Shown piece by piece: positions 449-48,375 of a stretch of DNA of 48,539 nucleotides. Below the pieces are notes generated by a model. It searched no databases, was not told the origin of the DNA, and saw only the letters and a program-made list of their open reading frames with translations. The position numbers were made by a program, and so were the translations under genes. This DNA is from Gammaproteobacteria bacterium (GTDB lineage Bacteria > Pseudomonadota > Gammaproteobacteria > JAJPIJ01). The DNA is taken from positions 1-48,539 of the forward strand of contig JAJPIJ010000049.1 in assembly GCA_021324815.1 (NCBI GenBank), in the 5' to 3' direction. Positions within the stretch are counted from its first letter, which is position 1; each line of letters opens with the position of its first letter.

Positions 449-3088
449 ATGTCCCCCCTGATCCACCGGCTGAAATCCCAGTACCGCTCGGCGCTGCTGC
501 AAGTGGTGCAATTTTCGGTGCGGCGCGCCGGGGCCGTCGTCATCCTCGCGCTGCTGGCGACGGCGGGGCTGGCCTGGTACACGGCGACGCACATCGCGCT
601 CGACACCGACACCACCAAGATGCTGGATCGCAATCTGCCGTTCCGCAAGGCGGGGCGTGAATTCAGCGCCGCCTTCCCGCAACTGGGCGATCAGATCGTG
701 CTGGTGCTGGAGGCGGAACACGCGGGCGAGGCCAGCGACGCCGCCGACGATCTGGCCGCGGCGCTGCGGAAGAGGCCCCGACAATTCCAGCACGTCGAGG
801 AACCGGGATCGGGGGAATATTTCGCCCGTTACGGCCTGCTGTACCTCAGCACCGATGAATTGTGGACGCTGGACGAGAAGCTGGCGGCGGCGGCGCCCTT
901 TCTCGGCACCCTGTCGCGCGATCCCAGCCTGCGGGGCCTGAGCGACGTTCTCGCCAAGGCCTTCGGCGAATACGTCAGCCCCGAGGATCGCAAGACGCTG
1001 ACCGGCATGTTCGACCGGCTGAGCGGCGTCATCGAACGGCGCCTCGACGGCCATCCGCAGCGCATGTCCTGGCGCGATGAGATGTTCAAGCCGGACGCGA
1101 ACAAGCCCGGACCGCGGCGCGCCTTCGTGCTGACCCAGGCGAAGCTCGACTTCACCAGCCTGGAGCCGGCGGCGGACGCGCTCAAGGCGGTGCACCAGAT
1201 CGGCCGCGAAATCGAGGCGACGCATCCCGGCGTGCGCGTGCGGGTCACGGGATCGGTCGCCATGGATACCGAGGAGCTGGCCACCGTGTCACGCGACTCG
1301 AAGCTGACCACGGCGCTGTCGTTCGGACTCGTCTGCGTGCTGCTGGTGCTGGGCCTGCGCTCGCCGGGGCCGGTGCTGGCCGTGCTCATCACCCTCACCT
1401 GCGGCCTCATCTGGACCGCCGCCTTCGCGGCGTTCGCCTTCGGCGCGCTCAATCTCATCTCCGTCAGCTTCGCGGTGCTGTTCATCGGCATGGGCGTCGA
1501 CTTCGGCATCCAGTTCGCCATGCGCTACCTCGAGGAATCGGATCGCGGGCGGGATCGCACCGCCGCGCTGCACGGCGCCGCGCGCGGCATCGGCGGCGCA
1601 CTCACGCTGGCGGCGGTGGCGGCGGCCATCAGCTTCTTCGCCTTCGTGCCGACCAGCTACCGCGGGCTTGCCGAACTCGGCGTCATCGCCGGCTTCAGCA
1701 TGGCGGTGGCGCTCTTCGCCAATCTCACCTTGCTGCCGGCCTTGCTGGGCCTGATGCGCCAGCCGCGCGCCCATCCGGAGCACATCGCCGCCGCGGGCGC
1801 GAACGGCCACAGCCGCCTGTTGCAGCGGCACGCGCGCGCCATCCTGATCGCAACCATGGCCGCGGTCGGCGGCGCTTTCCTGCTGCTGCCGCGCGCCAGC
1901 TTCGATTTCAATCCGATCAATTTGAAGGACGGCACCACGGAATCCGTCGCCACCTTCCGCGACCTGCTGAGCGATCCGGACACCACGCCCTACACCATCG
2001 AAATCCTCGCCCCCAACCTGGACGCCGCGCGTGAACTCGGGGCCAGGCTCGAAAAACTGCCGGTGGTGGACAAGACCGTGAACCTCGCGAGTTACGTGCC
2101 CGAAAACCAGGGCGACAAGCTGCCCATCATCGACAGCATCCGCACATCATTGCAGGGCGTGCTGGTGACGCCCGACACCAACGCGCCGGTGGACGCCGCG
2201 GTGCAGGCGGCAAGCCTGAAGAAATTCGGCGACAAGCTGCTGGAGGAACAGGGCGGGGAAAAGGATCCGGGCATGGCGGCGAGCATGAAGCGGCTGAGCG
2301 CCGCGATCCAGCGCCTTGAAACGCTGCCCGGATGGCCGGCGTCCGTGATACCGGGATTGCAGCGGGATTTGATCGGCGACCTGCCACAGCTGATCGCGCG
2401 GCTGCAAAAGGCGTTGCAGGCCGGCCCCGTCAAGCTCGCCGATCTTCCCGAGGAAATCAAGGAACGCTACGTGGCCGCCGACGGCCGCGCGCGGCTGGAG
2501 GTGTATCCGAAGGAGAACATGAACGACAACGAGGCCCTGCGGCGCTTCGTGCGCGCAGTGCAGGCCGTCGCGCCCGCCGCCACCGACGCGCCCGTCGAGC
2601 TGCTGGAGGGCGGCGACACCGTCATCCGCGCCTGCATCGAGGCGGCCCTGCTCGCGTTTTTCTGCACCGTGCTGCTGGTGGTGGTGGTGCTGCACAGTGT
2701 CCGCGCCACGGTGCTGATGATGACGCCGCTGCTGCTGGCAATGCTGTTCACCGTCGCCGCCTCCGTGCTGCTGCACATCCCGTTCAACTTCGCCAACATC
2801 ATCGCGCTGCCGCTCCTGATCGGCCTCAACAACGCCTACGCCGCCTATCTCGTGCTGCGCTATCGCAGCGAGGGCGGCGTCGCCGACGTGCTCACCAGCA
2901 GCACGCCGCGCGCCGTGCTGTTCAGCGGTTTCACCATCATCGCCTCGTTCGGCACGCTGGCGATCTCGACCCACCCCGGCCTGGCCGGCATGGGCGTGCT
3001 CATCAGCCTGTCGCTGGCGCTGGCGTTGTTCTGCTCGCTGGTCGTGCTGCCGGCGCTGCTCTGCCTCATCGACATCAACAAAAAATAA
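449..3088 (+). CDS. hpnN: MMPL/RND-family transporter, HpnN-like
   Basis: Integral membrane protein of about 880 residues with the duplicated RND/MMPL plan. A membrane segment near residue 30 is followed by a large periplasmic domain, a first block of five to six helices near residues 300-470 (RSPGPVLAVLI through FANLTLLPALLGL), a second periplasmic domain, and a C-terminal helix block ending at LVVLPALLCLID. The N-terminal pattern, a membrane helix then DTDTTKMLDRNLPFRKAG, is typical of the hopanoid-associated RND transporter HpnN, which moves hopanoids to the outer membrane. I chose the ATG at 449 because the 24 residues added by the ATG at 377 look non-native. No shc or other hpn genes are in the window, so the hopanoid role rests on family resemblance alone. 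It is convergent with gltX. Confidence 0.8.
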   Translation: MSPLIHRLKSQYRSALLQVVQFSVRRAGAVVILALLATAGLAWYTATHIALDTDTTKMLDRNLPFRKAGREFSAAFPQLGDQIVLVLEAEHAGEASDAADDLAAALRKRPRQFQHVEEPGSGEYFARYGLLYLSTDELWTLDEKLAAAAPFLGTLSRDPSLRGLSDVLAKAFGEYVSPEDRKTLTGMFDRLSGVIERRLDGHPQRMSWRDEMFKPDANKPGPRRAFVLTQAKLDFTSLEPAADALKAVHQIGREIEATHPGVRVRVTGSVAMDTEELATVSRDSKLTTALSFGLVCVLLVLGLRSPGPVLAVLITLTCGLIWTAAFAAFAFGALNLISVSFAVLFIGMGVDFGIQFAMRYLEESDRGRDRTAALHGAARGIGGALTLAAVAAAISFFAFVPTSYRGLAELGVIAGFSMAVALFANLTLLPALLGLMRQPRAHPEHIAAAGANGHSRLLQRHARAILIATMAAVGGAFLLLPRASFDFNPINLKDGTTESVATFRDLLSDPDTTPYTIEILAPNLDAARELGARLEKLPVVDKTVNLASYVPENQGDKLPIIDSIRTSLQGVLVTPDTNAPVDAAVQAASLKKFGDKLLEEQGGEKDPGMAASMKRLSAAIQRLETLPGWPASVIPGLQRDLIGDLPQLIARLQKALQAGPVKLADLPEEIKERYVAADGRARLEVYPKENMNDNEALRRFVRAVQAVAPAATDAPVELLEGGDTVIRACIEAALLAFFCTVLLVVVVLHSVRATVLMMTPLLLAMLFTVAASVLLHIPFNFANIIALPLLIGLNNAYAAYLVLRYRSEGGVADVLTSSTPRAVLFSGFTIIASFGTLAISTHPGLAGMGVLISLSLALALFCSLVVLPALLCLIDINKK

Positions 3089-3102
3089 CCCCTCTCCCCA
3101 TC

Positions 3103-3124
3103 ACTCTCCCGCAAGGGGGGAGGG
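3103..3124. repeat. C-rich/G-rich imperfect hairpin between hpnN and gltX
   Basis: CTCTCCC, a short loop and a G-rich arm form an imperfect stem-loop in the 44-base gap between two convergent genes. It resembles the common intergenic palindromes of this genome and could serve as a bidirectional transcript end. There is no clear U-tract. Confidence 0.4.
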
Positions 3125-3132
3125 TGACGTGT

Positions 3133-4539
3133 TCAGGTCTTGGCGCCGTCGATGAAGGCCAGCGCGCGATCGAGGCATTTCAAAGTGCGCTCGCGGCCAT
3201 AAAGCTTGAGCGTGACATCGATGGGCGGCGATACCGTGCCGCCGCAGGCGGCGACGCGCAGCGGCTGCGCGACCTTGCCGAGTTTCAAGCCCTGTTCCTC
3301 CGCCACCTGCGAAACCATTGTATGAATTGCCGGCGCCGACCAGTCATGCAGCACGGCGAATCGTCTCCGTAGTTCAGCCAGCAACGACTTTGAGTCCTTG
3401 GTCAGATGCTTCGCCGCGGCGGGATCGTAGTCTTTGAAATCCTCGTAGAAGATGCGCGCCTGATTCGCCATTTCCACCAGCGTCTTCGAGCGCTCGCGCA
3501 GCGGCTCGATGACCTCTTCCAGCGCCGGGCCGCGCGAGGCATCGACGCCGAGCCGGTGCAGGTAATCGCGCAACAGCCCCGCGAGCCTGCCCGCCTCCGC
3601 CTGCTTGATGTAGTGCTGGTTCAGCCACAAGAGCTTTTCGGGGTTGAACGCGGCGGCGGACCTGTTGACGTCGCGGACATCGAACTTTTCGATCATCTCA
3701 TCAACGCTGAACACTTCTTGATCGCCGTGCGACCAGCCCAGTCGCACCAGGTAATTCAGCAGCGCCTCGGGCAGATAACCCTCCTCCTCGTACTGCATGA
3801 CGCTCACCGTGCCGTGCCGCTTGGACAGCTTTTTGCCGTCCGGTCCCAGGATCATCGGCACATGCGCGTACACCGGCTGGGTCGCGCCCAGCGCCTGCAT
3901 GATGTTGATCTGGCGCGGCGTGTTGTTCAGGTGATCGTCGCCGCGGATGACGTGCGTGACGCGCATGTCCACGTCGTCCACCACCACCGTGAAATTGTAG
4001 GTCGGCGAGCCGTCGGCGCGGACGATGATCAGATCATCGAGCTCGCGGTTGTCGAACACCACGCGGCCGTGGATTTGATCCTCCACCACCACCTCGCCGT
4101 CGAGCGGATTCTTGAAGCGGATGACCGGCGTGACGCCCGGCGGCGGCGGATCGCGGCGGTCGCGGCAGCGGCCGTTGTAGCGCGGCTTCTCCCTGCGCGC
4201 CATCTGCTCCGCGCGCATGGCCTCCAGCTCCTCCCTGCTGCAATAGCAGCGGTAGGCCTTGCCCGCCGTCAGCAGTTGTCTGGCGACCTCGTGGTAGCGC
4301 TCGAAGTGCCGGGTCTGGTAGTACGGCCCCTCGTCGTACTTGAGCCCCAGCCATTCCATGCTCTGCAAGATGGCCTGCACCGCCTGCGGGGTGGAGCGCT
4401 CAAGGTCCGTGTCCTCGATGCGCAGGATGAACGTGCCCTTGTGCTTGCGCGCGTACAGCCAGGAGAACAGCGCCGTGCGGGCGCCGCCGACGTGCAGATA
4501 GCCGGTGGGACTGGGGGCGAAACGGGTGCGGACGGACAT
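3133..4539 (-). CDS. gltX: glutamyl-tRNA synthetase
   Basis: Class I aminoacyl-tRNA synthetase that charges tRNA-Glu in the cytoplasm; 468 residues, the usual bacterial length. The HIGH-type signature is FAPSPTGYLHVGGAR at the N-terminus. The KMSKS-type loop is KLSKRHG near residue 237. Catalytic-domain markers include YNFTVVVDD and IRGDDHLNNTPRQ. A CYC pair near residue 98 and a further Cys about 25 residues later recall the zinc site of E. coli GluRS, but the last ligand (His) is Arg here. I chose MSVRTRF as the start because homologues begin at that point; an in-frame ATG exists nine bases upstream. It sits beside tRNA genes, a frequent arrangement in Gammaproteobacteria. Confidence 0.97.
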   Translation of the reverse strand: MSVRTRFAPSPTGYLHVGGARTALFSWLYARKHKGTFILRIEDTDLERSTPQAVQAILQSMEWLGLKYDEGPYYQTRHFERYHEVARQLLTAGKAYRCYCSREELEAMRAEQMARREKPRYNGRCRDRRDPPPPGVTPVIRFKNPLDGEVVVEDQIHGRVVFDNRELDDLIIVRADGSPTYNFTVVVDDVDMRVTHVIRGDDHLNNTPRQINIMQALGATQPVYAHVPMILGPDGKKLSKRHGTVSVMQYEEEGYLPEALLNYLVRLGWSHGDQEVFSVDEMIEKFDVRDVNRSAAAFNPEKLLWLNQHYIKQAEAGRLAGLLRDYLHRLGVDASRGPALEEVIEPLRERSKTLVEMANQARIFYEDFKDYDPAAAKHLTKDSKSLLAELRRRFAVLHDWSAPAIHTMVSQVAEEQGLKLGKVAQPLRVAACGGTVSPPIDVTLKLYGRERTLKCLDRALAFIDGAKT

Positions 4540-31774: not shown

Positions 31775-34116
<2,342 letters not shown>

Positions 34117-34120
<4 letters not shown>

Positions 34121-35364
34121 GGCGCTTCCCACAGCGCGCGAATCGGCACAGCAAACAATCCTTCTCCGAAGCGCACGCTCATCGTCCCGTCGTGAAGCAC
34201 GACGCCGCCGGCGAAGCGCCGGCCGGCGGCATCCTTGAGTTTGCGCAGGCCCCGGAAGTCGGCGGCCGTCACCGTCGCCGCGGCTTTCACTTCGATCCCG
34301 ACGACCGCGTGGGCGCCGCGCTCGACGACGATGTCCACCTCGTAGCCGTCGCGATCGCGAAAGTGGTAGAAGGCATGCGGTTCATCGTGCCAGCTCGCCT
34401 GTCGCCTGAGCTCCTGGAACACGAACGTCTCGAGCAGTTGCCCCAGCAGGGCGCGGTCCTCCCTGAGCGCCTTGGTATCGGCGCCGAGCAACGCGCACAC
34501 GAGCCCGGTATCCCCGAGATGAAGCTTCGGCGTCTTGACGAGCCGGCTCAGGCGGTTGGCGTGCCAGGGCGGCAATTCCTCCAGCAAAAAGATGCGCGCG
34601 AGCAGCGTCAGGTAATCCCGGATGGTCGGCCGGCTCAGCTGAAACGGAGCCGCCAGGTCCGAGACATTGACGAGACGCGCCGTCTGTGCCGCGGCCGCAG
34701 CCATCAGGCGCGGCACCACGTCGAGCGAGGCGATGCGGGCGAGTGCGCGCACGTCGCGCTGCACGATGGTTTCGAGGTATCCCTCGTACCAGCGCGCCCG
34801 CCTCCGCCCCGCGGGAAGCTTGAGCGCCGCGGGATAGCCGCCGGCTGCGATGCGCTCGAGCAAGGCCGGTCCGAGGCGTTCGAACGGACGCATCTTGAAA
34901 CCTTCCCCGAAGAGCCGGTCCAGGAATGCCGGGCGCGTTCTGGCCAGCTCGCACTGCGCCAGAGGATGGAGGCGCACGATGGCCATACGGCCGGCGAGCG
35001 AGTCGCTCAACTTCGGCAGCAGCAGGACGTTCGTGGATCCGGTCAGCATGAACCGTCCGGGCCGCCGGTCGCGGTCAATCGCCGCCTTCAGCGTCACGAA
35101 CAAGTGCGGGACGTGTTGCACCTCATCCAGAATCACGCGCGGCGGCAGATCGGCCACGAAGCCGACCGGGTCCGCCGTGGCGACGCTCTTGACCGCCTCG
35201 TCGTCGAAGCTGAAATAGGCGTACCCGGTGCGAGTCCCGACCCGCTGCGCCAGCGTCGTCTTGCCGCTTTGGCGCGGGCCGTGGATCAGCACCGCCGGAG
35301 AATCGTCGAGCGCCTCGGTCAGCCGATCGGCGGCAAGGCGCGGATAGAAGTCGGTTGCTGCCAT
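34117..35364 (-). CDS. AAA ATPase with DUF4143 C-terminal domain
   Basis: Protein of 415 residues. The N-terminal AAA_14 ATPase has Walker [10 protein letters not shown] (29-37), Walker B RVILDEVQ (76-83) and sensor MLTGSTN near 107. The C-terminal DUF4143 domain has [13 protein letters not shown] and a nuclease-like pattern GYEVDIVVE then [10 protein letters not shown] (PD-(D/E)XK-like). Family members are found in many bacteria, often in variable regions, with unclear function; some are thought to be toxin- or defence-related. The ATG at 35364 fits the family start. The frame stays open upstream into an hsdR N-terminal stub (GTG at 35649), so an in-frame fusion is possible. Four motifs at 23-bp period stand directly before the start. 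The stop overlaps the chimeric hsdR start. Confidence 0.88.
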
Positions 35365-35443
35365 CGGCTGATTGTAACTCTTTGGCCCGGCTAATTGCAG
35401 GGTTGGTGATCGGCTGATTGAAACCGTTGTCCTCCGCCGATTG
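35365..35443. promoter_or_regulatory. four iterated motifs at exact 23-bp period
   Basis: On the plus strand the 10-base motif CGGCTGATTG occurs at 35365, CGGCTAATTG at 35388, CGGCTGATTG at 35411 and CCGCCGATTG at 35434. The steps are 23, 23 and 23 bases; the 13-base spacers differ. The first copy touches the start codon of the AAA/DUF4143 gene. This looks like an operator or iteron array for a protein that binds side by side at about two helical turns, perhaps the ATPase itself. Confidence 0.6.
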
Positions 35444-35526
35444 AAAGGATCAGTGGGTCGACGCCCAGTGCCAGGCCCGTCTGCCGCACCGCGCCGCCCT
35501 GCAATAGTTCCATCAAGGATTGGCAC

Positions 35527-35645
35527 CCGCTCGGCCGCCGACGTGTCCGGCGCGATGTCGGGGCCGTGGGCGATCTGCCAGCCGAGGGCTTCCTCCAGCC
35601 AGGTGAGGGCGGCGTCTTCGACGGTGGATTGGGTGAAGGCAGCGC

Positions 35646-35649
<4 letters not shown>
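35527..35649 (-). pseudogene. hsdR N-terminal stub
   Basis: From a GTG at 35649, which overlaps the preceding stop as GTGA, the frame reads [20 protein letters not shown], then [12 protein letters not shown] and so on to AAER. This is a standard HsdR N-terminus, homologous to the start of the chimeric hsdR. After about 41 codons the resemblance ends and other sequence follows, still without a stop, into the AAA gene. It is a truncated second hsdR 5' end. Confidence 0.7.
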
Positions 35650-36110
<461 letters not shown>

Positions 36111-36128: not shown

Positions 36129-38966
36129 CTACTCTTCGCTCTCGAAGCTCAGCCCCAGCTGCCTCGCGGCCTCCTTCATCGCCTTGAGCGTGGGATCGTT
36201 TTCGCCCAGGGGCCGGTCTTCAGGCAGCACCATCTCGAACTGCACGCCAAGTCCCAGCTTCTTCAGGTTCATGCGAGCGGCTGGCCCGACGAAGCAGCGG
36301 AAGAGCTCGCCCCAGTTCTCGACCGGAACGTCGCCTCGGACAACGAACCGCCGGACCGTGCCCTTGGTCCCGGGCTTTGCTGCTGTGGCAGTTCCAGTGG
36401 TTTCATCGGAGGACGTGCCGGCACTTGTTCCTCCCGCGGCACTTGCTTCGCCGGCGCCGATCCCAGCTCCAGTGGGCTCTTCGCCCCCCGGAACCTTCGC
36501 CGGCTCCGGCGTGAACGGCGGGATGATCCACACGCCGTCCTCGCTAGGGTCCAGAGACACCGACTGCTTGCAGTAGCGGGTCTGGAGAGTCGAGAGGCTT
36601 CCGCCACGGCCGATGCCCACAAGTCCGTCAACGCAGGCTTGGGCGAGCCCCGCGGTCACCGCCTCCTTAGCCGCGACCATGGGCTTGTCCGTGAACCGGA
36701 GGAACGCCTCGACAGCATCCTTCAGGCGCAGTCCGCCTTCCTTCGGGATCAAGCCCGTGCTCTCCAGCGTCACCGAGCCGACGCGACGGAGAATCCACTC
36801 CTCGTCCTCGACGAGTGTCGTCCACACGTAGCCGAGGTGTTCCTGGAAGGTGCGGCGCGCATCTGAGAGCGCGCACGGTTCTACCTCTTGGCCGCGCACC
36901 CGTAGGGCAACGGTGTAGGCGGGGCCCAGCGCCTCCACCGCGGCCTTACGTGCCGCCTCCAGGCGCTTCTTGAGATCCTCGCGTTGCTCCTCGTCGAGCT
37001 GATCCCAGTAGTCCGCGCGCACGCCCTCCAGAGCTGCCCGCTCCCGGTGTACCTGCCGCAGTTTGCTCAGTCCCCGAGCGGTTCCCACCAGGAAGAGAAG
37101 CGTGTTGCGGTACAGGCGGTCCTTTCCACCGCACCGGGTGCTGATCGCCTTCACGCGTTCCTGGATCGCGTTCTTCGCCCCGCCGTTCTCGTCCCAGGCG
37201 AGCGATGGTGGAAGGACCAGTAGGGTGAGCGACTTCTGCTCCGGCAGGTCCTCCGCGGGGTTGACGATCACGCGCCAGGTCGCGCCGGCGAGAGCGCCCT
37301 TCTGCGACTCGGCCCGGAGGTCCTCGAGAATCTCTTCGGCGAAGTTCTCCTTCGCGCTCTGCTGCCGGTACTGGACGACCAGCTTGTTGAGCGTCGGCTT
37401 CGTGCCGAACCAGTAGCGCTTCCCGAGGCTCCCGGCCGTCGCCGTGTGGAGGTAAAAGCAGCGGTTCTCCAGCTCCAACAAGGCCCCGTCGGCGTAGTTC
37501 CAGTTCAGGCCCTGCTTCGAGCACGCGAGCTTCAGGTCCTTCGAGCTGAATCCGCTCCGGCCGCCCTGGCCGCCGAACGACCCGAGCAGGATGGCGGACG
37601 CCAGCCCCTGGCCGATGGCCTCGCTCCGGTAGTCGCCGCCGCGTTCCTCGTCGAAGATGCCGGCGTTGGACCGGTCACCGATCACGTCCGCTGCGGCGAC
37701 GGACTGGTACGGGGGTCCCCAGAGTCGCGTCAGAGCCGCCTGCAGAGCATCAACGGACCAGCGGATATGGCACGGCTGGATCAGGTGCTGGGTTTCGGTA
37801 TTTCCCTGCCGGCGCTTCCAGAGGTCGCCCACGATGCTCGCAAGCAGACGCAGCACGCCCCGCGTCCGCTGGAAATCCGGGTGGCTGCCCCAGCGGGTGT
37901 AGAGCGCGTCGATGAGCAGGGGATGGAAGGGATAGGCGCGCTGGAGCTGCTCACGGTAGGTGTTCTTCGCCGCCTCCGAAGGCACCTCACCCGAGTGGGC
38001 CGCGTACATCGCCTGATAGACCTGGGCGACCTTCTTGGGATAGTCCGGCTCGCTCTCGGGCGCGATGGACTCGAACAGGCGGGCCCGGACGACTTCGTAG
38101 ATCTCCTCGTCGGCGACGGGTTTGACGTCGGCGCCCAGACGCTGGAAGCGCTTCTCCAGCGTGACGAACGCCTCCTGCCCCTTCTCGCTCTGGGCGACCT
38201 CGTACTTGCTCGCCGGCAGCGTGGCGACCGCGACCGCGCCCGGGACTTGCTGCACGGACTCGGTCAACTGCTGGATGAAGGAGACGGTCTGATCGGCGAG
38301 GCTCGTGTCGCCGACCGGCACCGCCGCCGCGCCGACGCAGTAGTCGGCCAGCTCGTCCAACAGAATCAGACACGGCGATGCGGCTTGCAGAATCTCGAAG
38401 AAGAGCCCCTGCGGGACCCGCTGGCTCTCGTCGTTCGCCCGCACGCGCTCGTAGAGAGTCTTTCCACCGAGCTGGTACGCCAGCTCGCCCCACAATGTGC
38501 GCAGGTGAACGCCGTCTTCGACCCGGCGGCCTTGCGTCGCATCGCAGGTCTGGTTCGTGAAGACCGCGACGCCTTTCACCTTCTCCGGCAGTTGCCCGCC
38601 GATGGCCTTTCGCAGTCCCTCCGCGTGAGGCGACCCCTTCAACCGATCCGCGTGTTTCGCCAGGTGCCACAGGGCCACGAGCGTGTGCGTCTTGCCGCCG
38701 CCGAAAGCGGTCTGGAGACTAATGATGCGGTCCCCGCTCTCGCCACCGCGCCGGAGCGCGCCTGCGACCCGACTCAGCACGGTGGACAGTCCTGTGGTCA
38801 GGTACGTCTTGCGGAAGAACTCCTCGGGGTCGAGGTAGACCTCCGGGGCCGTGTCCTGGACGACCGCCCAGACGTTGGCTGCGAACACAGCCTCTGCAAG
38901 GCGTCCCTCGCGGATATCCTCGTGAGGCGTCGCAACGGCGTACCAGGGCTTTAGCGCTTCGCTCAT
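36129..38966 (-). CDS. DUF499 (COG1483-type) AAA+ ATPase
   Basis: Protein of 945 residues. Walker A is [10 protein letters not shown] (86-95) and Walker B is [12 protein letters not shown] (198-209). The opening [21 protein letters not shown] and the block [31 protein letters not shown] near residue 370 are typical of DUF499 ATPases. These occur beside DUF1156 methylases in defence islands, where they are thought to act as motor or regulatory subunits of restriction-like systems. Near residues 840-880 is a low-complexity Gly/Ala/Thr linker, then a C-terminal domain ending [12 protein letters not shown]. The start overlaps the four-helix-bundle stop as ATGA. Twenty bases after its stop begins the hsdR debris, so the right half of this junction is a recombination point. 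Confidence 0.9.
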
Positions 38967-39337
38967 TTTCGATCTCCGATTTCCGATTGCCGATTGTCTT
39001 TGGCCGTTCTCTTCGATGCGACCATGATCGCAACCAGCTCGTCCGCTTCCCGTAGGAGTGGCGTTACCCGGTCCTTTGGCATGAGGCGGCCTTCGATAAT
39101 CAACTCGAGCCAATAACTGCTTTCATCCGCTTCTTCTTCGACGATACCCAGCTTGGCTATGAACTCGGCCTTGGATCGACCTCGACAGGCTGCTCGATAG
39201 TTCGCTCCAACGGCCGTTCCTGAGCGAACAAGCTGACTCCCAATTGCTCGACCCACATTGTTGTTAGGCAATGCTGCAACCAACTTCATGATACGCAGTC
39301 CGAACTGCTTTGTCCTTTTGCCGAAGTTCATCAGCAT
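38963..39337 (-). CDS. four-helix-bundle protein (S23/IVP-like, Avd fold family)
   Basis: Protein of about 124 residues, nearly all helical. The pattern FGLRIMKLVAALPNNNVGRAIGSQLVRSGTAVGANYRAACRG, with the residues between LVRS and NYR conserved, belongs to the four-helix-bundle family first known from 23S rRNA intervening sequences and related to the Avd protein of diversity-generating retroelements. I chose the ATG at 39337; another lies two codons in. It sits between the DUF1156 methylase and the DUF499 ATPase, inside 19-bp inverted repeats, and its last codons run through the left repeat. Role unknown; probably a mobile passenger able to bind nucleic acid. Confidence 0.85.
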   Translation of the reverse strand: MLMNFGKRTKQFGLRIMKLVAALPNNNVGRAIGSQLVRSGTAVGANYRAACRGRSKAEFIAKLGIVEEEADESSYWLELIIEGRLMPKDRVTPLLREADELVAIMVASKRTAKDNRQSEIGDRK

Positions 39338-39373
39338 CCATTGGTTCTTCCCATCAATCGGAAATCGCCGATC
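38971..39373. mobile_element. cassette with 19-bp inverted repeats carrying the four-helix-bundle gene
   Basis: The left end 38971-38989 and the right end 39355-39373 are inverted copies matching at 17 of 19 bases: CAATCGGAAATCG plus six more on the right, and its complement on the left. Each end lies in a run of heptads: CGATCTC, CGATTTC, CGATTGC, CGATTGT from 38970, and TCAATCG, GAAATCG, CCGATCG from 39354. The element fills exactly the space between the methylase stop (39375) and the DUF499 start (38966). No transposase is encoded. Confidence 0.65.
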
Positions 39374-39374
39374 G

Positions 39375-42308
39375 TCAATCAAACAATTCCTTTTGCGCGT
39401 CCCTGTACGTCGTGCTCTTGCCCTCCGCGCGCAGGGTCGGCCGCTCGGCAAGCAGCGCATTCACCAGCTTCCAGTCCTCCAAGTCGCGCGGGAGGACCTC
39501 GAAGAGCGCCTGCGCCAGCTTCCAGAACGGGCCGTCCTCCAAGAGGTCGCGTTCGCCGAGATACCCGACCAGATCGCTGCGCTTCTCTTCCTTCCAGAGG
39601 AGCATGCTGCGATGGAGCGCATCGATGTGCGGCGGGTTCTGATCGGCGCCGAGTCCTCGGCGCTCGGCGCGGTCATCGAGAAGCGCAAGGCGGCATTTCG
39701 AGCCGTCCACCACGAAGATCCCGTGCCCGCGGGCGACCTCCATGGCGTTGTCCTCGTCGCCGCCGATCTGCACCACCATCCGGGCGTCGTCCCACGCCTG
39801 TTCCGCCGCGCCGTAGAGGTTCGCCCAGACGTAGTAGAGCGTGGAGAGGTTGTCGCCGCGGAACTCCCCGGCGATGGCGTCGCGCGCCGCCTGCTTGGCG
39901 AGATCCAGCAGTTCTGGGATGCCGACGGGGGTCCCGTCCGCCTTTTCCACGCGCTCGTACTTTCCGAACACGCCGACGGCCGGCCCGTAGCAAGCGACGA
40001 TGAGGTCTGCGCCGCGGAAGCCGTAGGACCAGAAGCGCTTCACGGAACGCTTGACGATCTCTTCAATCTGCGACCGGACCTGCTTGAAGGAAATCGCGCT
40101 GTCCGTGACGCGTGGGCGACAGGCGACTGTGACCGAACTCTCCAAAGAAGCCGTCCCAAGAGCCCAGGCAGTGTTGGGCATCTCCGTCGCAATCGGCCAG
40201 GTCGCATCCGGCGAAAGCCCAGCCTCGAAGAGGGCAGAGAGCAAGGCGGTCCAGGCGTCGGTGGACTGATGCGCGAACATGACCGTCACGAGTTTCGGCT
40301 CGCGAGCAAGACGCAGTACCTCGCTGAAACTCTCCTTGAGAAGGCGTCGATAGTGGGCGCGGGCACGCTCCTGCGAGCCTTCATGCCGGTGTCTGAGGCT
40401 CGTCGCCTCGTCGGCCTTGGGCGTGAGAGGGGTGCTGAAGACCTCGGGGAACTGGGATCCGATGCTCCGCTTGAGCCACACGTAGAAGAAATCCGACAGG
40501 TCCCCGTAGGAGATCGCGTCGTCGTAAGGGGGATCAGTAACCACGCAGGCGGCCGTTCCCGATTCGAGGGGTAGTGAAGCGGCATTGCCGAGGAGAATCT
40601 GCGGCTCCTTGAGGGTCGATCCGTTGGCGAGCCGCTCGTGCTCGATGACGTTGAGCATGTAGCGCAGTTGTGTGGAGGCAGAACCCGAACTGTCGGCGAG
40701 TGGATTGACCTCCGGGTAATCCCACATCAGCGGAATGACCTGCCCGCTAAAGGGAGTCTTGACTATTTGGCGTCCTGCCTCCCAACGACACGAAGTATTC
40801 GCAAACACAGCCACCCGATCCAGCCAAAGCGCAAGGTAGAGCGCCAAGGCTCGACGATACTCCTCATCGGGAACCTCGTGAGCCATGACCTCCAATGCTT
40901 CGTGTAAGGCACGAACGAACGTCTGCAGGGCCAGGAGTTGTCTCTTGTTGAAGAGGGACCCCCAATCCGTGATCCCGTACAGATGCACCCAAATCACGTC
41001 AGCGCTGATTTCCGGAGCGATGGGTTCAGCAGGCTTCTCGACTTCCAACTGTTCGAGCTCCTCCAGCGCCCGCAGGTCGACCTCTTCTACTGGACGATAG
41101 TCCTTTCCTCCCTTATTCATCGTGACCACTGCCACCATGCGGTGTCCCATCCGCCCCTCGCATCCAGCCTGACGGAGTCCTTCTGTAGACGTCGGCTGGT
41201 CGCAGTACGGACAGATGGCAGGGCCTCGTTGACGCTTAGTCCCGGCGGTTTGTTTGATTGCCTTTCCCTTGGCGACCCCGAAGGAGACCTCCTTCCGCGC
41301 CTTGTCTACGTTCATCGTGAGCGCCGCCTTAGTGCCCTTGCTGCACAAGACAAGGCTACGGAGCAACGGGATCTGGCCCTGACACGAGGGATTCGAGCAG
41401 GGGGCCGTACGTGCCCAGAGGTAGGCGAGGACGGGGTGGCCGTCATTGCCCGCCGGATACAGGTGTTCGATCTTTTCTCGCGTCCGCTCCAGGACCCAGT
41501 TCGCCCACCGCTCGAAGTCGTGGACGAGAACGTTGGGAACCTGGACTTCCCGCTCGACCTCCTTGCCGAATTCCTCGACGAGAGCCTTCCGCTTGCCGGG
41601 CTTGCCGTACTTCTGCGGGAACTCGCAGGTCGCTCGCAGGATGAGATAGGCCACCGGGTTGTAGTCATTGGCGACTGCCTTGCACCCGAGGCGACCAGCC
41701 TCAAGCGGGATGGCACCGCCGCCGGCGAAGGGGTCGAGGACCGTCGGCACTTGGCCGCCATAAGCCACCTTCACGAGTTCCCGGGCGATGCGCAGCACCT
41801 CACGACCCTGCGGGTTGTCGGGGTCGGACGTCTCCCACTTCACCAGGGACCGGTCGTCGAGCAGGTACTTGGGGTCCGGCGCCTTCTTTGCCTTGCCCGC
41901 CTCGAACGCCAGCGACTCGGGCGACCACTTCGCCATGAACATCAGCAGCCGGTTGGGCAGCGTGTCCGGCATGCCCTCGTAAGGGCGATACGGGTCCTCG
42001 TCGCGGCGGCTCTCACGGCCACGACGGTAGTGTTTCAGTTCCGCCGGGACGTGCGTCTTGAGATGGCGCTCCACGGCGGCGCGGAACTCCGCCGGGCAGC
42101 GCGGGTCGTCAGGATCGGGCACGAGCGAGGCGAACACCACCGCACGCGACGCTGCCAAGGGGCGACGCGCCCACCAGATGTGCAGATGGCTGATGTGAGC
42201 GTGGTGAATGTTCTTGTCCCGCACGCTCTCCGCCGAGATCTCCCGAATCGGCAGCGCCACCTCGATCAGGCGGGGGCACTCGTTACCGTTGTTTCCTCGC
42301 CCGCTCAT
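39375..42308 (-). CDS. DUF1156 (COG1743-type) adenine-specific DNA methylase with Zn ribbon
   Basis: Protein of 977 residues. The N-terminal DUF1156 signature is HHAHISHLHIWWARRPLAAS near residue 36. The SAM-binding motif is LDPFAGGGAIPLEAG (191-205), and the catalytic motif is TDPPY (591-595), followed by DAISYGDLSDFFYVWLKRS. Between them lies a cysteine-rich zone, CSNPSC (304-309), C322, CPYC (366-369) and C383, consistent with a zinc ribbon. It should methylate adenine in DNA, marking self, with the DUF499 ATPase as usual partner. The start ATG overlaps the AlbA_2 stop as ATGA. Its stop abuts the right inverted repeat of the four-helix-bundle cassette. Confidence 0.92.
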   Translation of the reverse strand: MSGRGNNGNECPRLIEVALPIREISAESVRDKNIHHAHISHLHIWWARRPLAASRAVVFASLVPDPDDPRCPAEFRAAVERHLKTHVPAELKHYRRGRESRRDEDPYRPYEGMPDTLPNRLLMFMAKWSPESLAFEAGKAKKAPDPKYLLDDRSLVKWETSDPDNPQGREVLRIARELVKVAYGGQVPTVLDPFAGGGAIPLEAGRLGCKAVANDYNPVAYLILRATCEFPQKYGKPGKRKALVEEFGKEVEREVQVPNVLVHDFERWANWVLERTREKIEHLYPAGNDGHPVLAYLWARTAPCSNPSCQGQIPLLRSLVLCSKGTKAALTMNVDKARKEVSFGVAKGKAIKQTAGTKRQRGPAICPYCDQPTSTEGLRQAGCEGRMGHRMVAVVTMNKGGKDYRPVEEVDLRALEELEQLEVEKPAEPIAPEISADVIWVHLYGITDWGSLFNKRQLLALQTFVRALHEALEVMAHEVPDEEYRRALALYLALWLDRVAVFANTSCRWEAGRQIVKTPFSGQVIPLMWDYPEVNPLADSSGSASTQLRYMLNVIEHERLANGSTLKEPQILLGNAASLPLESGTAACVVTDPPYDDAISYGDLSDFFYVWLKRSIGSQFPEVFSTPLTPKADEATSLRHRHEGSQERARAHYRRLLKESFSEVLRLAREPKLVTVMFAHQSTDAWTALLSALFEAGLSPDATWPIATEMPNTAWALGTASLESSVTVACRPRVTDSAISFKQVRSQIEEIVKRSVKRFWSYGFRGADLIVACYGPAVGVFGKYERVEKADGTPVGIPELLDLAKQAARDAIAGEFRGDNLSTLYYVWANLYGAAEQAWDDARMVVQIGGDEDNAMEVARGHGIFVVDGSKCRLALLDDRAERRGLGADQNPPHIDALHRSMLLWKEEKRSDLVGYLGERDLLEDGPFWKLAQALFEVLPRDLEDWKLVNALLAERPTLRAEGKSTTYRDAQKELFD

Positions 42309-43543
42309 GATTGCCGTCGCTCCTTCCAGAGGCGGACGACGAACCGATCCTCTTCCTCGATGAGATCCGGCTCCGTTGCGTTGTGAGCACGCATGGACTC
42401 GATGATCCGGTTGCGCACTCCCATTCCGTAGTGTTCCACGTAGCCGTAGTCGCGGAGAATCTCTTTGAGAAGCTCGTTGCGCGCGACGCGCACGACCCCC
42501 TGCTTCATCTTCTCTACCGTGACACCGTTTGGAAGCCGGCCGGGGGAGATGACCTCGAGCCGGTTCGCGTAAAGCGCGACCTCGATATCCGTGCCTTCTC
42601 GCGCATAATCGCGATGCGCCACTGCGTTCACGACCGCCTCCCGTACCGCATCGAGGGGAAGTGCCTTCTTTCTGCGCCGGCGCCCTCCCTCGAGCCAAGC
42701 CATGCTCCCCATGTTGCGGTTCACGAAATCCACCGCACGATCGATTACGCCCTTGTCCACCGCACGGCCGCGCGCGGAGACCACCGAAACCAGCGGCCCT
42801 CGAATCCGTTCCTCGTCGATCGTGTTGTATTCCTTTTCCGTGCCCGGGAAGGCCACTGCCGTCACCCCTGCCTGCGGCAGGCGACGGTTCGGGTTTTCGC
42901 CGAAGAGGAGGAGGCCGGCGACCGATGCGCAAGCATGCTCTCCCGCCTGCACCAGCAAATCGGAATTGAGCAGGAGCTGTCGCCAGGCTTCAACATCCTC
43001 GCGATCTGGCACTGACCGCTTCAGGACGACGCCGAAGTAGTTTTCGAGCCTCGTGATGTCGAGGCTCTGGAAATCCGTATCCGGGACCGGCTTGATCTCG
43101 TAGCGGACCAGGCGAGCGGACTGGTAGAGCCGTCCCTCTTCCTCGCGTGTTGCTTCGCGTGACGTGCTCCCCACGCGAATGAAGGTGACCCAGGCGTTGC
43201 CGCGCCTGGCTTTGTAGGGTTTCCCCGGACTGTCTGCGGGGAGCTCGACGATCCCTATGATCTTACCGTCATCCATCGTTACCGAGCTCCACACCGGGAT
43301 GATTGCCGGCTGCAGGTTCTGCCGCGCGATGTTCATCACCCACTCCTCAGCTTGCGCGCGGCTTCTGGTCAGTCCGGCAATCCGGCCGTCATCCTCCACT
43401 CCCAGCAGGATCACGCCCCCCTCGAGGTTGAGCAACGCGGCGATCTCAGTTGCCAGCGAGTCCGGGTGGACATCATCACGCTTGAACTCGACGCGAGAGT
43501 TCTCTCCGTTGGCGATGAGTTCGAGCAACTCAGTCTTGTTCAT
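42305..43543 (-). CDS. AlbA_2/Schlafen-domain ATP-binding protein (copy 1)
   Basis: Protein of 412 residues. The N-terminal AlbA_2 (Schlafen-like nucleic-acid-binding) domain, about residues 10-135, shows ENSRVEFKRDD and LEGGVILLGVEDDGRIAGL. The C-terminal GHKL-type ATP-binding domain has LDAVREAVVNAVAHRDYAREGTD near 295-318, EVISPGRLPNGV, and GYVEHYGMGVRNRI. Such COG2865-type proteins are often annotated as transcriptional regulators or as defence genes. It starts three bases after the TrlF stop and overlaps the methylase start, so it belongs to one translational unit with both. A paralogue lies at 46972-48375. Confidence 0.88.
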   Translation of the reverse strand: MNKTELLELIANGENSRVEFKRDDVHPDSLATEIAALLNLEGGVILLGVEDDGRIAGLTRSRAQAEEWVMNIARQNLQPAIIPVWSSVTMDDGKIIGIVELPADSPGKPYKARRGNAWVTFIRVGSTSREATREEEGRLYQSARLVRYEIKPVPDTDFQSLDITRLENYFGVVLKRSVPDREDVEAWRQLLLNSDLLVQAGEHACASVAGLLLFGENPNRRLPQAGVTAVAFPGTEKEYNTIDEERIRGPLVSVVSARGRAVDKGVIDRAVDFVNRNMGSMAWLEGGRRRRKKALPLDAVREAVVNAVAHRDYAREGTDIEVALYANRLEVISPGRLPNGVTVEKMKQGVVRVARNELLKEILRDYGYVEHYGMGVRNRIIESMRAHNATEPDLIEEEDRFVVRLWKERRQS

Positions 43544-46508: not shown

Positions 46509-46786
46509 TCATCTCATCTCTTGTAAGTCCCTTGCCATCAGAGCTCGTTGCAGAGCATGTGCGGCCGCCTGCCTGTCGGCGCGAAGCAGGATGGTCTGCA
46601 GCCAGCGCTTCCCGGCGCCGTTCGTCAGCTCATTGCAGCGCATTCGCCAGATCATTTCACACCCCTCGCGGGACGAGGAACCAGGAGGCCCCGTCCCATC
46701 GAGTGCATGAGTCTAGGTGGCCGCAAGGCGGAATAGGGCGGCTCAGCCCTGAATGGGGCCGCCTTATTTCCGCCTTATTCTCCGCC
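46509..46786 (-). pseudogene. decayed module: AlbA_2 C-terminal remnant followed by a short frame
   Basis: Together with the small frame at 46787-46975 this covers the 460-base stretch without an intact gene. Near 46660-46690 the minus strand reads WDGASWFLVPRGV then a stop, a diverged copy of the AlbA_2 C-terminus GATWFLVSGGRE. It is followed by a 48-codon frame (46655 to 46509) starting MIWRMRCNELTNGAGKRW, comparable to MSWRMRWNKLANALGKAG of the next module. The remaining bases, including short GGCGGAAATAAGGCGG-type repeats near 46750-46790, show nothing recognisable. Confidence 0.45.
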
Positions 46787-46975
46787 CTATTCTTCATACC
46801 CTCTCTCCAGAGCCCAGGAGGATCCGCGCCCGTGCCCACTCTGGCGTACGAGCCGGAGCCGCTTCAGGTGCAGCAGATCCAGGCGGAACCGCCGATCGGA
46901 CGGGGAGTCCTGAAGCTCCCCGCCAGCTTTTCCCAGCGCATTCGCCAGCTTATTCCAGCGCATTCGCCAGCTCAT
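46787..46975 (-). CDS. small frame (62 aa) with winged-helix-like C-terminal remnant
   Basis: A 62-codon frame whose ATG overlaps the AlbA_2 stop as ATGA. It starts MSWRMRWNKLANALGKAGG and continues DLLHLKRLRLVRQSGHGRGS, clearly related to DDLYHLKRLGLIDLKGRGRG at the end of the AlbA_2 protein just upstream. The first part contains a repeated AATGCGCTGG-type unit. It may be a partial duplicate of the last 60 codons of that gene, or a small translated protein. Confidence 0.4.
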   Translation of the reverse strand: MSWRMRWNKLANALGKAGGELQDSPSDRRFRLDLLHLKRLRLVRQSGHGRGSSWALERGYEE

Positions 46976-48375
46976 TCCCGGCCTCCCGATACGAGGAACC
47001 AAGTCGCTCCCCGCCCTCGTCCCTTCAAGTCGATCAGCCCGAGCCGCTTCAGGTGATAGAGATCGTCTCGAACTGTGGCCTCTGCCGGCGGGCTCGATAG
47101 ACTCGCCATGATCTGTCGCAGCGGGATCCGTCTCCCGCGGCCGATCGCCGCCAGGATCTCGCGCTGCCGCTCGGTGAGGTCGTGGGCGACCCGATGCGGC
47201 GCGATGTAGCCGCTCGGGAGGAAGCGCACCCAGACAGACCCGGCCTGCTCGCCGAACTCGGGCTCGGGATGGCCGGCCCGGACGCACAGCGAGACGATCT
47301 GCTGGGTGCCGCGGCCCCACTGCTCGATGAGGCCGCGGCGGTAAAAGACGCCGGCGATGAGCGGGTTGCGCGGGCGCGACTCGTGCTTGCGCTTGAGGTC
47401 CTCGGGTTTGAGGCCGAAGGGCAGCGTGCCGTCGCTCCAGATTTCCAGCCGGTCATCGTAGATCGCCACGCTCACCGCCCCACCGGCGTGGGTGTAGGTG
47501 CGGTGACAGATCGCGTTGATCACCGCCTCGCGCAGCGCCGCCACGGGGAAGAGCGGCTCGTCGATCCGCTCCAGGCGTCCCGGCTCGAACCGCCCGGCGA
47601 TGGGCAGGTGCCGGAGCATGAACGCCATCGCCTCATCCAGGAGCCGGAAGGCGTGACCGTGGAGTTGGCGGTTGTCGAGGAACGCCGACTTCTCGATGCC
47701 CCTGAACCGCGCAAGCCGGAGCTGGCACTGGGGATAGTCCTGCTCCAGCCGCGTCCCGAACAACACGACGGCCGCGTTGAGCAATCGGCCATCTCTGCGG
47801 AGCTGAAGGCGATCGAGGATGTCACCGACGTCACTGCCAGTGGATTCCGGCAGGCGGCCGGCCTCGATGCCGAGGCGCACGGTGCGAAGAATCTCTTCCC
47901 GATCGAGGTCGTCGATCTCCACGCCCGGAGCCACATCGTTCTCCCACCGGTTGCGCGCGTGCGCCCGCTCGAGCAACAGGGTCTGGTACCGCTCCTGCGG
48001 CATCACCGACGTGGCGGTGCCGACGCGTTGATACGGTCGGCCGTCGAAGGCGAACGGCCGCGCGTCGTAGGCTGGAGGCGCCTCGAGGACGATCACCTCG
48101 CCGCTCTTGCCGGCTGGCACGCGGTGGACTCGCACGGGCGCGGCCGGCTCGATACGATGGAGGAGCGCCGCGATGTCCCGCAGCGTCGTGTCGGCCACGG
48201 TCTGACCGATGACCTGACCTTCCGGCGTTACCCCGATCACCACGAAGCCGCCCGTTCCGTTGAGGAAGCCGCAGAGCGTCTCTCCAGCCCGGCGGAGCTG
48301 GGAGGTGGACTTCTTGAACTCCACGCCCTCCGACTCGCCGGCGGCCGCGAGGCGTTCCACGTCGGCCAGCTTCAT
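46972..48375 (-). CDS. AlbA_2/Schlafen-domain ATP-binding protein with winged helix (copy 2)
   Basis: Protein of 467 residues. The AlbA_2 domain (about 10-135) has ESEGVEFKKSTSQL and LNGTGGFVVIGVTPEGQVIGQ. The GHKL ATP-binding domain (about 275-390) has LREAVINAICHRTYTHAGG, DDRLEIWSDGTLPFG and GLIEQWGRGTQQIV. A C-terminal winged helix (about 400-467) has LTERQREILAAIGRGRRIPL and VRDDLYHLKRLGLIDL. It is more distant from copy 1 than recent duplicates would be. The start overlaps the upstream stop by ATGA. It is bracketed by the 102-bp direct repeats. Confidence 0.88.
   Translation of the reverse strand: MKLADVERLAAAGESEGVEFKKSTSQLRRAGETLCGFLNGTGGFVVIGVTPEGQVIGQTVADTTLRDIAALLHRIEPAAPVRVHRVPAGKSGEVIVLEAPPAYDARPFAFDGRPYQRVGTATSVMPQERYQTLLLERAHARNRWENDVAPGVEIDDLDREEILRTVRLGIEAGRLPESTGSDVGDILDRLQLRRDGRLLNAAVVLFGTRLEQDYPQCQLRLARFRGIEKSAFLDNRQLHGHAFRLLDEAMAFMLRHLPIAGRFEPGRLERIDEPLFPVAALREAVINAICHRTYTHAGGAVSVAIYDDRLEIWSDGTLPFGLKPEDLKRKHESRPRNPLIAGVFYRRGLIEQWGRGTQQIVSLCVRAGHPEPEFGEQAGSVWVRFLPSGYIAPHRVAHDLTERQREILAAIGRGRRIPLRQIMASLSSPPAEATVRDDLYHLKRLGLIDLKGRGRGATWFLVSGGRE

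Follow-up and report, generated by a model that had tools for sequence, protein, structure and literature searches.

A start-codon-adjacent array of 23-bp-spaced sites inherited with the PDC-S01 (AAA_14/DUF4143) gene, a candidate autoregulatory operator

The window analyzed here is a 48,539-nt stretch of gammaproteobacterial DNA (contig JAJPIJ010000049.1, positions 1-48,539, assembly GCA_021324815.1), and its minus strand carries a gene for an AAA_14/DUF4143 protein in the surroundings listed in Table 1. Both Pfam domains were recognized well above their cut-offs (AAA_14, 89.8 bits, cut-off 27; DUF4143, 160.5 bits, cut-off 28.1), and the PADLOC model PDC-S01 (PDLC04790) matched the protein (P0001) at full length, over residues 5-413 (E 1.5e-164). 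The DUF4143 and HsdR-like genes are probably translationally coupled, because the ATG of the latter overlaps the stop of the former (ATGA). HmaB- and HmaC-like genes are both present in the neighbourhood, and the adjoining helicase-like ORF matches REase_I and not HmaA; judged by this gene content, the PDC-S01 gene is embedded in an Hma-type defence island. An ORF of the 23S rRNA intervening-sequence protein family was also observed between the HmaC- and HmaB-like genes (38963-39460). According to PMC12988326, candidates of this sort were discovered through their embedding in Hma islands, as is the case here; the paper ranks PDC-S01 fourth in frequency among prokaryotic defences and says that most such candidates await validation.

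Table 1. Features of the PDC-S01 locus (window coordinates).
Feature	Position	Strand	Remarks
HsdR-like gene (HSDR_N, SWI2_SNF2)	31775..34120	minus	ATG overlaps DUF4143 stop
AAA_14 + DUF4143 gene, PADLOC PDC-S01	34117..35364	minus	415 aa
Repeat R-1	35365..35377	minus	TTACAATCAGCCG; abuts ATG; orthologues keep TTACRATYRGCCG
Repeat R-2	35388..35400	minus	CTGCAATTAGCCG; TTGCAAT, -35-like, in most orthologues
Repeat R-3	35411..35423	minus	TTTCAATCAGCCG
Repeat R-4, outermost	35434..35446	minus	TTTCAATCGGCGG
HmaC-like DUF499 ATPase	36129..38966	minus	PDLC00662, E 6.4e-134
HmaB-like DUF1156 adenine methylase	39375..42932	minus	PDLC00661, E 1.8e-129; start codon uncertain

The AlphaFold model of the protein (mean pLDDT 80) comprises an NTPase core, a winged helix (residues about 216-283) and a C-terminal alpha/beta domain, an arrangement suggestive of an AAA/STAND NTPase joined to a winged helix and a PD-(D/E)XK-like nuclease domain. 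Residues 5-294 matched SSO1545, PABY2304, CED-4 and the NB-ARC parts of plant resistosomes, and residues 267-413 matched the nucleases Can2 and Card1 and also McrC, all with Z below 8. The best of these matches, to the archaeal ATPases SSO1545 and PABY2304 (2fna and 2qen; Z 7.9), is only suggestive, and its alignment ends before the predicted PD-(D/E)XK-like domain, the part resembling Can2, Card1 and McrC. Weak Foldseek matches included DNA-binding winged helices (FabT-DNA, MepR, CzrA).

On the minus strand, the DNA ahead of the DUF4143 ATPase gene reads CCTTTCAATCGGCGGaggacaacggTTTCAATCAGCCGatcaccaaccCTGCAATTAGCCGggccaaagagTTACAATCAGCCGATG. A previous reading of the window from its sequence alone had described four decamers starting at 35365, 35388, 35411 and 35434, spaced by exactly 23 bp and touching the start codon, and these coordinates and the period proved correct; the final G of the innermost unit directly adjoins the ATG (35364-35362). 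The variable spacer it reported also stands, but the size of the unit has to be revised: the conserved part measures 13 nt instead of 10, which leaves a free part of 10 nt instead of 13. The unit, repeated four times on the gene strand, has the consensus TTnCAATYRGCCG. In none of 2000 dinucleotide shuffles was the period-23 score reached, and none of 400 shuffles reached the score at any period between 14 and 40. Furthermore, this is the top 12-column three-copy repeat (period 14-40) anywhere in the window, and searches of the 2.37-Mb genome found a single array of this kind and a single DUF4143 gene. Tandem Repeats Finder did not detect the array, since its free parts are unrelated to one another. 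Other repeats are present in the window near another locus, namely a 22-bp tandem repeat (2.6 copies, 46921-46978) and a 12-bp repeat (3 copies, 46759-46793), and they are unlike the array in sequence.

To determine how far the array follows the gene, we considered 21 relatives obtained by a scan of bacterial and archaeal genomes, together with others added by kinship searches, and applied an automatic test to a region of 160 nt upstream plus 30 nt. On inspection of the upstream sequences, nearly all close relatives proved to have the array immediately ahead of the start. Among the homologues sharing at least 50% identity, all 30 that were scored carry a 23-bp array in the same place, a count that takes in the window itself and one contig twice (L007 and L027). 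In the automatic test 23 bp was the best period in 21/21 homologues at 60% identity or more and in 9/9 at 50-60%; seven of those at 42-50% prefer 22 bp and four prefer 23 bp, and below 42% most are without an array. A score of at least 6 at 22 or 23 bp was reached by 42 of the 50 homologues at 42% identity or above, compared with 5 of 1801 control windows drawn from these loci and 0.5% of shuffles. The array-bearing homologues belong to Pseudomonadota, Nitrospirota, Chloroflexota and Verrucomicrobiota, and a partial copy (64% identity) in a Candidatus Acetothermia bin adds a fifth phylum. Lack of conservation of the decamer upstream of orthologues, which the sequence-only reading had named as its refutation, was therefore not what we found.

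The arrangement is maintained while the motif itself diverges. In most of the 21 close orthologues, only 0-2 nt separate the last site from the start codon, and AA is also favoured four bases ahead of the 13-nt conserved part. The mostly plasmid-borne group at 45-48% identity presents 22-bp spacing and an altered motif within the same architecture, and in the group with GGCAATTGGACG the start codon lies inside the last site. The 23-bp period persists even with a wholly different motif in L030 (50% identity), L033 (35%) and L109 (33%). When the labels 22, 23 and none were placed on the tree, 7 changes were required, compared with 31 for shuffled labels, and motif distance tracks protein distance (r 0.71). 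Two further observations concern individual loci. Upstream of L031, repeated copies of the 7-bp unit ggcaatc lead straight into a degenerate array, as if the core of the site had expanded; and in genome G329 the same array sites occur near the start of both contigs C4 and C5 (L063, L076, L080, L081), which may reflect two copies of the cassette or an assembly break at the cassette.

These sequence comparisons make selection on a site array belonging to the gene well supported. Strong conservation with unrelated spacers, together with the shuffle and control-window tests, agrees with the earlier proposal that the sites are of a protein-binding type and did not arise by simple tandem duplication. 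Chance or plain duplication can practically be discounted: the small size of the array is all that speaks for it, and the unrelated spacers and the shuffle, control-window and cross-phylum tests oppose it, the conservation test refuting it. A transcribed RNA element, either CRISPR-like or a structured leader, is also very improbable. Its layout of repeats and unrelated spacers is indeed shared by the array, but CRISPR repeats are almost identical copies of at least about 21 nt, separated by spacers of comparable length, and here the units are 13-nt degenerate copies with 10-nt gaps; besides, in the close orthologues the array lies before the leader of the gene and not inside it.

Another aspect is the extent of what the loci have in common. 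All-against-all blastn comparisons showed that similarity consists of the array and the ORF and little else; it sets in close to the outer repeats and breaks off at the end of the ORF or not far from it (2917-4239 for L007/L011, 1217-2501 for L006/L007). On the upstream side the limit lies anywhere between about 45 and 276 nt ahead of the start codon, and on the downstream side the match is lost no more than a few codons from the stop. Even L011 and L066, at 95% nucleotide identity, cease to match some 3 codons short of the stop codon. Such confinement to the cassette, its patchy distribution and its plasmid copies would be expected if the array were the end or target of a mobile element, recognized by the nuclease domain and devoid of a regulatory role. 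Nevertheless, we regard this as improbable, given that the upstream limit is variable (276 nt for L011/L066 and about 45-110 nt for other pairs), that no sequence after the ORF is shared at the 3' side, and that Pfam found no integrase-like domain in the DUF4143 protein. Upstream of the array, at 35459-36092, the window contains HsdR-like fragments (a middle part, then a second N-terminus); lying beside the fuller HsdR gene downstream, they suggest that the hsdR region was once duplicated or received the cassette by insertion.

Since the array and the ORF are the only sequence shared, there is no other common gene that could encode the binder. This bears on the proposal that the array is bound not by the encoded protein but by some other regulator of the host or the island. 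Precedent for it exists in the RptR system, in which a separate repressor acting on direct repeats can run defence islands (PMC12255303). We consider it distinctly unlikely here, because the array and the gene are the sole sequence common to loci of different phyla and the array is single in its own genome, which implies that no host regulon uses it. The RptR-controlled promoter, moreover, has 9-bp repeats around the palindrome TAGCTA and a separate small repressor (PMC12255303), whereas the present array has 13-nt non-palindromic sites at 22/23 bp with the core CAATYRGCCG, next to an ATPase-nuclease gene and with no separate regulator.

A two-site pattern was found in 14 of 369 genomes of the class and the reversed control pattern in none. 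Eight of the 14 are DUF4143 cassettes, one of them broken (L062), and three are truncated or decayed remnants: in L057 only the first codons after the array remain (MPTPPLYITSQ, then a stop), L058 has a degenerate start, and L067 retains a decayed ORF with 30% identity. The pairs in L056 and L065 lie within coding DNA and are probably due to chance. The array presents two features expected of an autoregulatory direct-repeat operator: it consists of at least three evenly spaced direct repeats beside a gene, and it is conserved with that gene and absent elsewhere in the genome; the site pair of L068, one of the 14, showed no clear cassette remnant. Among viral contigs, four presented the pattern, two of them related, and none the reversed control; tblastn found no DUF4143 gene in these four contigs, and a viral search by protein gave no relative of the DUF4143 protein.

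The array also contains promoter-like elements. R-1 includes a -10-like TACAAT (35371-35376) that suggests a promoter role; transcription would then begin on the ATG or right beside it. In the 21 close orthologues, the third base is A in 18/21 start-adjacent sites and in 0/21 of the next sites, where G prevails (p 7.5e-9, the sequences being related to one another). The resulting elements are TACRAT in R-1 and TTGCAA in R-2, 18 nt apart, with the ATG 6-8 nt past TACRAT in most cases, a layout that would fit a leaderless mRNA transcribed from a promoter within the array. The embedded promoter stays a suggestion, because a consensus promoter scan found none in the window and found one in 4/29 relatives (0.8 expected). 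An explanation of the 23-bp period as a 17-bp promoter spacer was rejected: the TTGCAA-TACAAT spacer is 18 nt and the scan yielded no standard promoter.

The remoter relatives often present a different element at the same place. Among homologues below 42% identity, 14 of 30 have a significant inverted repeat (p <=0.05) within the 90 nt preceding the start, the expectation being about 5% and the frequency in the group at 50% identity or more being 17%. Many of these inverted repeats end 10 nt or less from the start codon, as in L035 (CAGTTTATGCAAATTGTAAAATGCATTTACATTTTGCATAAACTG). In L032, L035, L037, L040, L047, L052, L102, L104 and L112, which have no direct-repeat array, a long palindrome extends to about 10 nt or less from the start codon. 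The PDC-S01 model matched all ten relatives sampled, including some with arrays, with palindromes or with neither.

An operator for autoregulation and a loading site for the ATPase had both been put forward in the sequence-only reading. In the second case, which could equally be a self-marking site, the ATPase would assemble on the array for defence, through nucleation of an oligomer or sensing of the DNA state, and expression control would be a by-product. The constancy of the 22/23-bp spacing despite the change of motif suggests a rigid multimer on DNA, and the predicted NTPase plus PD-(D/E)XK architecture would suit it. We consider a loading site rather unlikely, though, since the array precedes the start codon, where a loading site need not be, has no free copies in its own genome and hardly any in the class, and since the palindrome of the remoter relatives fits an operator better. 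We therefore infer an operator rather than a loading site.

Our preferred reading, to which we assign a probability of about 0.6 on the basis of these comparisons, is that the array is a cooperative autoregulatory cis operator, carried by the PDC-S01 gene and read by the protein encoded there. Autoregulation is the most economical mechanism because the array and the ORF are the only things the loci share. Several copies of the protein, or an oligomer, would bind side by side on the 23-bp-spaced sites (22 bp in the related group), with either the winged helix or the DUF4143 domain making contact with the DNA. As the array occupies the DNA just ahead of the start codon and runs right up to it, protein bound there would prevent the PDC-S01 gene from being transcribed or, in some groups, translated. 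Such repression would hold a potentially harmful nuclease-ATPase at a low level, and a newly acquired copy could regulate itself in any host. We infer that the encoded protein would be the binder, that its binding would repress and that the mRNA would be leaderless. Several points count against autoregulation. The partial correlation between motif and protein, in a sliding window, showed no peak at the winged helix or recognition helix, and linked inheritance alone would give the r of 0.71. The best fold matches are STAND proteins with Z below 8, and in STAND NTPases the winged helix often has an intramolecular role instead of contacting DNA. The negative consensus promoter scan of the window, with hits in only 4 of 29 relatives, also weighs against it.

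A comparable arrangement is known in the iterons of plasmid Rep genes, direct repeats of about 22 bp that lie beside the rep gene and are bound by its winged-helix product, a protein restraining its own expression. The present gene differs in being chromosomal or plasmid cargo that encodes a predicted AAA/STAND NTPase with a nuclease domain and not a replication initiator, and no origin was seen. A literature search found no description of a regulatory array for PDC-S01, and the available part of PMC12988326 makes no mention of one.

A bolder extension, which we regard as a long shot, is that the NTPase-nuclease might rest as an oligomer on its own array, and that invading DNA or phage decoy sites might draw it off, releasing both expression and nuclease, so that the operator would serve as an infection sensor. 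One phage-like viral contig (L124, IMGVR_UViG_3300025087_000255) carries a two-site 23-bp array at 1725-1760, 5' of a small holin-like ORF, which may be a decoy or a remnant or may have arisen by chance; if the operator did act as a sensor, this gene-less array would be a decoy or trigger.

PDC-S01 is reportedly among the most abundant prokaryotic defence candidates and its mechanism is little understood. The array hints that its protein is controlled at its own promoter, and the conserved set of sites could be used directly in binding assays, structural studies and reporter experiments. The 22/23-bp array or the start-codon palindrome may also serve as a signature for sorting PDC-S01 subfamilies. 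Having travelled with a single-gene defence candidate across several phyla, the array offers a concrete entry into a family of unknown mechanism.
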